Positions 30,577 to 33,985 of a stretch of 41,493 nucleotides of DNA are shown in pieces. The DNA is from Desulfuromonadaceae bacterium. GTDB taxonomy: Bacteria > Desulfobacterota > Desulfuromonadia > Desulfuromonadales > Desulfuromonadaceae. Below the pieces are notes generated by a model, which had not been told where the DNA came from, did not search any database, and worked only from the letters and a program-made list of their open reading frames with translations. A program made the position numbers and the translations under genes. The stretch spans positions 1 to 41,493 of the forward strand of contig JAMOOS010000192.1 in NCBI GenBank assembly GCA_027065245.1. The letters run 5' to 3'. Each line of letters begins with the position of its first letter. Positions within the stretch are counted from its first letter, which is position 1.

Positions 30577-30613
30577 AATGGTGGATAACAACATGAACAG
30601 GTGGCGGGAGCAG

Positions 30614-31669
30614 ATGAACGCGCAGCAGGAAAAACAGGATCTTAAAGAGTTCACCCCGGATGAGCTGCTGGCGTTTCTCGCTGGTATGGGCAAGGAGCGT
30701 TTTCGCTGCGAGCAGCTGCTGCGCTGGATCTACAAGCGTGACGTCACCGATCTCGATGCCATGAGCGATCTATCCAAGGTGTTGCGTGCCGAGCTGCGCC
30801 AGCGGGTATACATCTCCGACTGGCACGCCGCCGCAGTAGAGACCAGCCGCGACGGCACGCGCAAATATCTCTACCGCCTCGCCGACGGCGCCAGTGTCGA
30901 AAGTGTGCGCATCCCCATGGATAACGAGCGCTGGACGCTGTGCATCTCCACCCAGGTGGGCTGCGCCATGGGGTGCGCCTTCTGCATGACCGGCAGCTTC
31001 GGGTTGACACGCAATCTCAGCGCCGCCGAAATTGTCAACCAGGTGTGCGCGGCGCGAAAGGACGGCCCGGTACACAACATTGTACTCATGGGCATGGGCG
31101 AGCCGCTGCACAATCTCGATAACGTGGTTCGCGCCCTGCAGATACTCTACGCCCCCGCCGGTCTCGACTACGGTACCCGCAAGGTCACCCTGTCCACCTG
31201 CGGGCTGGTGCCGCAGATGGCGGAACTGGGGCGGCGCATAACTGTCAACTTGGCCGTGTCCCTCAACGCCACCACCGACGCGGTGCGCGACCAGCTGATG
31301 CCGGTGAACCGCCGCTATCCCCTTAACGAACTGATGGCCGCCTGTCGCAGCTATCCGTTGCCATCGCACCGGCGTATTACCTTTGAATACATTATGCTCA
31401 AAGGAATTAACGCCTCTTTGGCCGATGCCAGACGGCTGGTAAAATTACTGCACGGCATTCGCGCCAAGGTAAATCTCATCCCCTTCAACGAACACGAGGC
31501 CAGCAGCTACCGCTGCCCGGACGAAGATGATATGATCGCCTTCCAGACTTATCTGCTCGATCACGGCGTGGTCGCCATCCGCCGCGCCAGCAAAGGGCAG
31601 GATATCGCCGCCGCTTGCGGCCAGTTGAAAGGAAAACTGGCGACCGCTTCTGCGGAGCAGCCGCCATGA
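30614..31669 (+). CDS. rlmN: 23S rRNA (adenine2503-C2)-methyltransferase RlmN
   Basis: Radical [42 protein letters not shown] track start 30578 abuts the terminator, ATG at 30614 has GGGAG upstream. Confidence 0.95.
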
Positions 31670-31672
31670 TTC

Positions 31673-32112
31673 GTTGGGTTTCGCTACGCTCTACCCAACC
31701 TACGGTGCTGCGCATAACCACGATATTAAGGTAGGTTGGGTAGAATGCAATGAAACCCAACAGGTTTGTAATCGGCAGCGCCATCACCCGTTGGGTTTCG
31801 CTACGCTCTACCCAACCTACAGTGCTGCGCATAACCACGGCATTAAGGTAGGTTGGGTAGAATGAAATGAAACCCAACAGGTTCGTAATCGGCAGCGCCA
31901 TCACCCGTTGGGTTTCGCTACGCTCTACCCAACCTACGGTGCTGCGCATAACCACGATATTAAGGTAGGTTGGGTAGAATGAAATGAAACCCAACAGGTT
32001 CGTAACCAGCAGCGCCATGATTCGTTGGGTTTCGCTACGCTCTACCCAACCTACGGTGCTACGCATTGTTACGGCATTAGGGTAGGTTGGGTAGAATGAA
32101 ATGAAACCCAAC
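31673..32112. repeat. Upstream REP/BIME array: four A-B units with exact 117-nt period (unit starts 31673, 31790, 31907, 32024)
   Basis: A = GTTGGGTTTCGCTACGCTCTACCCAACCTAC; 27-nt inner spacer; B = GTAGGTTGGGTAGAATGAAATGAAACCCAAC; 28-nt outer spacer. Confidence 0.96.
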
Positions 32113-32149
32113 AGGTTCGTAACCGACGGTTGCTAATTGGGGGGGAGGA

Positions 32150-32686
32150 ATGCGATATCGGCGTTCGCGGTTGGCTGGTGGGTGTTTCTTTTTTACTTTG
32201 GTAACCTACCACCGGCGGCCGATTTTTGCTGATCATGCGCATGTTGATTTGTTGCGTTTGGCGATACGGAATGTGATGTTGCGTCATCCGTTTATAATTG
32301 ATGCCATTGTTGTATTGCCCGATCATTTGCATTGTGTCTGGACGTTGCCGGATGGCGATGCCGATTTTTCCACCCGGTGGCGGTTGATCAAAGGTAATTT
32401 TTCGCGTGGCTGTCAGGTGGGTAAAAACGATAGCATTAACGCCAGCCGTGTTGCCAAAAAGGAACGGACAATTTGGCAACGCAGGTTTTGGGAACATGAG
32501 ATTCGTGATGAGCGGGATTTTCGACACCATGTTGATTACATCCATTTTAATCCGGTAAAGCATGGTTTGGTATCTGCGGTGCAAGATTGGCAATATTCGA
32601 GTTTTAATTATTATTGTCAGCGTGGTATTTATCCGCAAAACTGGTGTGCCACTGGGATGGAACAACCGCCGGGTTGGGTAGAATGA
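32150..32686 (+). mobile_element. REP-associated tyrosine transposase (RAYT, TnpA_REP, Y1 HUH family), intact 178-aa ORF
   Basis: MRYRRSRLAGGCFFFTLVTYHRRPIF N-terminus; VVLPDHLHCVW (HUH: His59, His61); RFWEHEIRDERDFRHHVDYIHFNPVKHGLV (Tyr130); flanked by REP arrays. Confidence 0.95.
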
Positions 32687-33020
32687 AATGAAACCCAACA
32701 GGTTTGTAATCGGCAGCGCCATGATTCGTTGGGTTTCGCTACGCTCTACCCAACCTACGGTGCTACGCATAGCCACGATATTAGGGTAGGTTGGGTAGAA
32801 TGAAATGAAACCCAACAGGTTTGTAATCGGCAGCGCCATGATTCGTTGGGTTTCGCTGCGCTCTACCCAACCTACGGTGCTACGCATTGCCACGGCATTA
32901 GGGTAGGTTGGGTAGAATGAAATGAAACCCAACAGGTTCGTAAGCGGCAGCGCCATGATTTGTTGGGTTTCGCTACGCTCTACCCAACCTACGGTGCTAC
33001 GCGTTGCCACGGCATTAAGG
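32669..33020. repeat. Downstream REP/BIME array: one B half lacking GTAG (32669-32699), two complete units (32728, 32845), one terminal A half with inner spacer (32962-33019)
   Basis: Same A/B sequences and 117-nt period as the upstream array. Confidence 0.95.
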
Positions 33021-33124: not shown

Positions 33125-33985
33125 ATGGCTCAAACAGTTATCGGAGTAATCGGCGGCAGTGGTCTGTATGCCATGGAGGAGTTGCGCGATGTGGAGCAGG
33201 TGCGTTTGCAGACGCCGTTTGGCGAGCCGTCGGATGCTTATGTTGTCGGTTATCTGGGTGATGTGAAGATGGTTTTTCTGCCGCGCCACGGGCGCGGTCA
33301 CAGATTGTTGCCGTCGGAGGTGCCCTATCGTGCTAACATCTACGGCATGAAGATGCTCGGCGTGGAGCGGATTATCTCTGTTTCCGCCGTGGGCAGCATG
33401 AAGGAGGAGATCGCTCCCGGCGATATCGTCATCCCACACCAGTTTTTCGATCGTACCAGCGGCAAACGCGCCGGTACCTTTTTTGGCAACGGCATTTGCG
33501 CTCATGTGCAGTTTGCCGATCCGGTGTGCCTAGATATGGCGCGGATTATCGCTGACGCTGCTCGCAGTGCCGGTGCCAATGTGCACGAAGGCGGCACCTA
33601 TATCTGCATCGAGGGGCCGATGTTTTCCACTCGCGCTGAATCGCGGATATTCCGCAGCTGGGGGGTGGATGTGATCGGCATGACCAACCTGCCCGAGGCG
33701 CGTCTGGCGCGCGAGGCGCAGTTGTGCTACACCACTGTGGCTCTGGCCACCGATTACGACTGCTGGTACGAGGAGCACGGTGATGTGTCGGTGGAGGCGG
33801 TGCTGGAAGTGGTGCGCAAAAATGTCGCTATGGCGCAGAAGATTATCGCCACTGCGGCGGCGCAGCTGGTGGGTGAGCGCCGCTGTGATTGTCCAAAGGC
33901 GCTGCGCTACGCGGTAATGACGGATGACAGCTGTATCCCCGCCGCTAGCAGAGAAAGTCTGGCGCTGCTGATCGGGGATGCCTGA
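33125..33985 (+). CDS. mtnP: S-methyl-5'-thioadenosine phosphorylase (MTAP/PNP family)
   Basis: IGVIGGSGLYAMEEL, LPRHGRGHRLLPSEVPYRANIYGMKMLGVERIISVSAVGSMKEEIAPGD, TNLPEARLAREAQLCYTTVALATDYDCW. Confidence 0.93.
   Translation: MAQTVIGVIGGSGLYAMEELRDVEQVRLQTPFGEPSDAYVVGYLGDVKMVFLPRHGRGHRLLPSEVPYRANIYGMKMLGVERIISVSAVGSMKEEIAPGDIVIPHQFFDRTSGKRAGTFFGNGICAHVQFADPVCLDMARIIADAARSAGANVHEGGTYICIEGPMFSTRAESRIFRSWGVDVIGMTNLPEARLAREAQLCYTTVALATDYDCWYEEHGDVSVEAVLEVVRKNVAMAQKIIATAAAQLVGERRCDCPKALRYAVMTDDSCIPAASRESLALLIGDA

Follow-up and report, generated by a model that had tools for sequence, protein, structure and literature searches.

Introduction

Genes for REP-associated tyrosine transposases (RAYTs) have already been reported in association with arrays of repetitive extragenic palindromic (REP) sequences (PMC2817692). 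The closest described system is the REPtron of Escherichia coli, composed of TnpA-REP (YafM; PDB 4er8) and the Y and Z2 REPs, in which two alternating REP types form arrays of the BIME-2 class (BIME, bacterial interspersed mosaic element) on both sides of the gene (PMC2817692). A related case is the RAYT/REP of Coxiella burnetii Dugway (GTAGGTTGGGCTGAGCTTGCGAAGCCCAAC), for which no direct BIME association is marked (PMC2817692, Table 1). Large tandem clusters of GTAG-tagged REPs are also on record and include families whose loops have complementary GC ends below a short inner loop (PMC3733652). Here we describe a RAYT gene and its flanking REP arrays, located at positions 31673 to 33020 of a 41,493-nucleotide stretch of Desulfuromonadaceae bacterium DNA (contig JAMOOS010000192.1, the whole of which is hereafter the window). 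The locus is very probably a REPtron, in which a single-copy RAYT of group 2 (the E. coli type) was inserted together with its REPs between rlmN and mtnP, the REP pair at its flanks has expanded into a tandem, BIME-like array of A/B pairs in inverted orientation, and the protein most likely binds and cleaves single-stranded REPs.

As a REPtron with BIME-2-like arrays it is a good and ordinary member of a well-described kind of locus. Its value is that of a clean example outside enterobacteria and pseudomonads, combining a RAYT and a two-type tandem BIME in a place that is empty in relatives of the same genus. The new details are a C-terminal tail encoded by a REP copy without GTAG, and the sharp contrast of hairpins under constraint with spacers that drift.

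Identification of the RAYT protein

The open reading frame at 32150-32686 on the plus strand encodes 178 amino acids, and contains the H59-L60-H61 (HUH) motif and the single catalytic tyrosine Y130 of the Y1 HUH fold that an earlier note on this DNA had picked out; these residues were aligned with those of E. coli TnpA-REP. The protein matched the NCBIfam equivalog REP_Tyr_transpos (NF047646) with E=5.1e-63 and 211.3 bits against a cut-off of 80, and its sole PDB match was E. coli TnpA-REP (4er8; E=8.6e-44, residues 2-167), while the score for Pfam Y1_Tnp was under its cut-off. Among 53 aligned homologues, H59, H61, W109, Q110, Y130 and N134 were conserved in 52, the exception being one frame-disrupted row, and the position of R119 was occupied by R in 44 and by K in five. 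In the alignment, W109, Q110, R119, Y130 and N134 are equivalent to W94, Q95, R104, Y115 and N119 of the E. coli protein, of which W94, Q95 and R104 are GTAG-recognition residues (PMC6006769; PMC8266576). As judged from its sequence, the protein is a group-2 RAYT with an intact HUH motif, Tyr130 and GTAG-contact residues. The genome search of the draft assembly identified this one full-length RAYT; a candidate for a second at C12:199-396 was rejected as a partial match covering 73 model positions, with 32.6 bits and below the cut-off.

Organization of the REP arrays

A total of 14 hairpins with the arms GTTGGGT and ACCCAAC were identified by pattern search between 31673 and 32992, comprising seven A copies on the minus strand (starting at 31673, 31790, 31907, 32024, 32728, 32845 and 32962) and seven B copies on the plus strand (starting at 31731, 31848, 31965, 32082, 32669, 32786 and 32903), in the numbers and at the positions on both sides of the gene that had been claimed. 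These are not chance hairpins, since the stem pattern gave 27 matches in its own genome against none for a reversed control pattern. The left array (31673-32112; four A and four B) holds 4.0 copies of a 117-bp tandem unit and the right array (32669-33020; three B and three A, with a partial unit after the last A) 3.0 copies, with Tandem Repeats Finder scores of 776 and 630, respectively. The spacers are constant in length: A and the following B are 27 nt apart, B and the following A 28 nt. The RAYT gene is bordered by inverted REPs, B (plus) upstream and A (minus) downstream, with an extra copy, B-prime, in between. With REPs of alternating orientation and two constant spacers, repeated in tandem, the arrays are BIME-2-like, as in E. 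coli. The GTAG tag, assigned to every REP by the earlier note, is present in 13 of the 14, B-prime (32669-32699, plus strand) carrying CCGG in its place.

The genome is a draft of 2.31 Mb in 353 contigs, in which searches detected 28 recognisable full REPs: 14 in the window, eight at the start of contig C16 and six at the end of contig C63, where an additional REP is cut by the contig end. GTAG is present in 27 of the 28. Neither singlets nor pairs were found in the draft genome by a relaxed pattern and a 117-bp DNA search, all copies lying in the three arrays. A relaxed GTAG-hairpin search for other REP families gave one unrelated hit in the genome, and the controls gave a similar number.

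The C16 array (locus L132, 1-491) and the C63 array (locus L133, near its end) consist of A/B units as in the window and are both cut by contig ends. They share the orientation pattern and may represent the two sides of a single array, the probable cause of the contig break there.

Folding and covariation of the REP hairpins

The 13 nucleotides between the arms had been described as a loop, but they are not an open one. Upon folding as single-stranded DNA, copy A (for instance 31673-31703, minus strand) formed, after the GTAG, the 7-bp stem, a 3x3 internal loop (AGA/GAA), a 2-bp apical stem (GC/GC) and a GTA triloop, with an energy of -6.2 kcal/mol (z -3.9). Copy B (for instance 31848-31878, plus strand; AGA/GAA, AT/AT and a GAA triloop between the same arms) gave -5.6 kcal/mol (z -3.4), the energy model pairing its lower stem only. 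The apical stem thus differs between A and B on both sides. The two loop sequences previously proposed account for most copies; one A and one B copy in the window carry a GCA triloop instead.

The apical stem was also examined in 38 distinct 31-nt GTAG hairpins drawn from the RAYT and REP loci retrieved. In 31 of these the apical dinucleotides are complementary, with five different pairings (GC, AC, AT, CC and GT), against 23 in the best of 2000 shuffles, a count not to be read as a probability because the sequences are related; a GNA triloop was present in 29. In the subset of 16 REPs that begin with GTAGGTTGGGT, the apical stem had a covariation score of 0.157, a value reached by none of 500 shuffles (0.081 +- 0.016), and slid-partner controls gave at most 0.044. 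These observations altogether indicate that the 13 nt between the arms are structured and consist of a purine-rich 3x3 internal loop, an apical stem of 2 bp that covaries and, mostly, a GNA triloop.

E. coli TnpA-REP requires an unpaired interruption of the stem and does not select the loop sequence (PMC8266576), and the anatomy seen here fits that need. The E. coli REP likewise is a GTAG-tagged hairpin with an internal mismatch region, in the form of a bulge, but differs from the present REP, which has the stem GTTGGGT and an internal loop adjoining a 2-bp apical stem capped by a triloop. The Coxiella REP shares the GTAGGTTGGG start and, as read from its printed sequence, has an internal GA/GA region beneath a GC/GC apical stem. 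The loops of the large tandem clusters mentioned above resemble those found here, although the available part of the text of PMC3733652 does not identify this exact REP family.

Conservation of hairpins and divergence of spacers

The near-identity of the copies had been taken to indicate recent or homogenised amplification. The hairpins are indeed nearly identical, but in the five complete units of the window variable columns amounted to 2 of 62 within REPs and 14 of 55 within spacers (Fisher p=0.0007). Over all three genome arrays, variation among the 14 A and 13 B copies is confined to triloop positions 17-18, except for one edge B copy in the C16 array (B-prime stands outside this rule), whereas the two spacers vary at 10 of 27 and 9 of 28 columns, or 19 of 55 in all. 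Since spacers have diverged while hairpins stayed constant, near-identity of hairpins alone is no proof of recent amplification, and the initial reading is too simple; the hairpins are kept constant, by selection or REP-specific conversion, while the spacers have aged. Frozen stems, free triloops and drifting spacers together amount to a naturally occurring mutational scan of the enzyme's requirements.

A C-terminus encoded by a REP

The sequence of B-prime (CCGCCGGGTTGGGTAGAATGA) is at the same time the end of the RAYT reading frame. The last four residues, GWVE, and the stop codon are supplied by this REP, the tail thus reading PPGWVE, and close homologues have a short acidic tail mostly ending in GxE or GE(R). 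Among 61 RAYT loci with an identified REP, the stop codon lies inside a REP hairpin only here and at locus L112 of Methylomonas. Nunvar et al. described four rayt 3' ends that had been captured within BIMEs (PMC2817692), a precedent for growth of a BIME into the end of the gene.

In E. coli TnpA-REP, the tail residues G160 and E161 contact GTAG, and deletion of the last 13 residues increases activity (PMC8266576). In the present locus an array REP has overwritten the end of the transposase gene. It is conceivable, though we consider it improbable, that by this replacement of a tail with GTAG contacts and a restraining effect in E. coli the element may have re-tuned its own enzyme, and that the copy without GTAG may resist cleavage while terminating the gene. 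The REP-encoded C-terminus is in any case a specific and testable change in a tail reported to regulate the E. coli enzyme.

Homologous loci and origin of the insertion

Of 89 RAYT loci scanned, 53 had a GTAG hairpin in two or more copies, one of them close to the gene, and 23 of these 53 share the GTAGGTTGGG start; homologues with GTAG hairpins just outside the gene occur in many phyla. The flanking repeats of homologues are therefore not unrelated to those found here, and the earlier assignment of a RAYT with GTAG-tagged cognate REPs and REPtron anatomy agrees with the homologous loci as well as with NF047646 and 4er8.

The whole locus is intergenic. The left array directly adjoins an rlmN-like gene (30578-31669, plus strand; 75-77% identity to the same-genus gene beside mtnP), and a gene similar to mtnP (methylthioadenosine phosphorylase; 33125-33985, plus strand), compared with same-genus genomes, follows on the right. 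In the nine same-genus genomes searched, mtnP was present, with rlmN just upstream except in a single locus set, on a short contig, and the readable rlmN-mtnP junctions, with gaps of tens to about 130 bp, contained neither REP nor RAYT. The GC content of the RAYT gene is 47% and that at third codon positions (GC3) 45%, against a GC3 of 65-77% in five neighbouring genes. The best RAYT relatives in the genome collection show about 63% identity and are in a cyanobacterium; in the same-genus genome G009 a RAYT occupies another position and is accompanied by a different REP (GTAGGTCGGG). Horizontal acquisition has been described for the RAYT family (PMC6006769), and the empty sites together with the foreign composition fit such a lineage-specific acquisition of this locus.

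Proposed mechanism and alternatives

After insertion of the RAYT gene with its REPs into the rlmN-mtnP intergenic region, the flanking REP pair would have been extended into the BIME-like tandem array of inverted A/B pairs, and the array would have lengthened by duplication of units, spacers included, as the constant 117-bp period suggests. By analogy with the E. coli enzyme, the RAYT would bind single-stranded REPs by way of their 5' GTAG and of the hairpin with its internal loop, Tyr130 would cleave nearby DNA and then rejoin it, and REP/BIME units could be copied or shuffled on single-stranded DNA such as that of the lagging strand.

Several observations weigh against this interpretation. 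The native C-terminal tail of the RAYT is gone, and the activity could be altered. No more than 28 REPs were found, all within three arrays and none as a singlet; E. coli differs in this respect, as do REP populations of the usual size, which exceed 100 copies (PMC2817692), so that genome-wide mobilisation by this RAYT is not evidenced; copies missing between the contigs of the draft are possible. The proposal that this is the source locus of REPs for the genome is thus weakly supported, since the other copies form two arrays cut by contig ends and dispersed singlets are lacking. In addition, the distance between REP stems did not correlate significantly with that between RAYTs in the set of homologues (Mantel r=0.18, equalled or exceeded in 128 of 2000 permutations, p about 0.06), all of which are about equally distant.

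The array might have grown purely by replication slippage or unequal recombination of the 117-bp unit, with no involvement of the RAYT. This is a real though minority possibility, because whole units with their spacers repeat at a fixed period, but slippage leaves unexplained both how units reached the C16 and C63 array or arrays and why the hairpins resist change while the spacers diverge. It is rather unlikely that the arrays are kept for a host role (transcription termination, protection of mRNA 3' ends, or binding of gyrase or integration host factor, as with E. coli BIMEs), the RAYT being a passenger or inactive. The intergenic position directly after rlmN, the conserved stems between drifting spacers and the changed tail of the RAYT would suit such a role, but the RAYT is intact at all catalytic and GTAG-contact residues, GTAG is retained in 27 of 28 copies although a terminator does not need it, and scanning of the locus for terminator or promoter signals gave nothing beyond shuffles. 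An intact IS200-like element moving as a unit, to which the palindromes on both sides, the lineage-specific insertion and the foreign composition might point, is very improbable given its single copy in the genome and a protein that belongs to the REP-associated equivalog and falls below the Y1_Tnp cut-off.

Additional observations

Two long reading frames on the minus strand, 31485-32111 (208 aa) and 32069-33010 (313 aa), consist mostly of translated REP units (VGWVERSETQ...) and would be spurious if called as genes.

In Methylomonas sp. LW13, three RAYT genes (L088, L092 and L112) are located on one chromosome with the REP types GTAGGATGGG, GTAGGGTGGA and GTAGGTTGGGG, respectively, and form a natural set for testing of specificity. 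A very dense REP cluster was detected in a distant relative (G057:C61, locus L135), with 63 hairpins in the genome; the two types in the cluster differ by a swapped apical pair, G-C against C-G.
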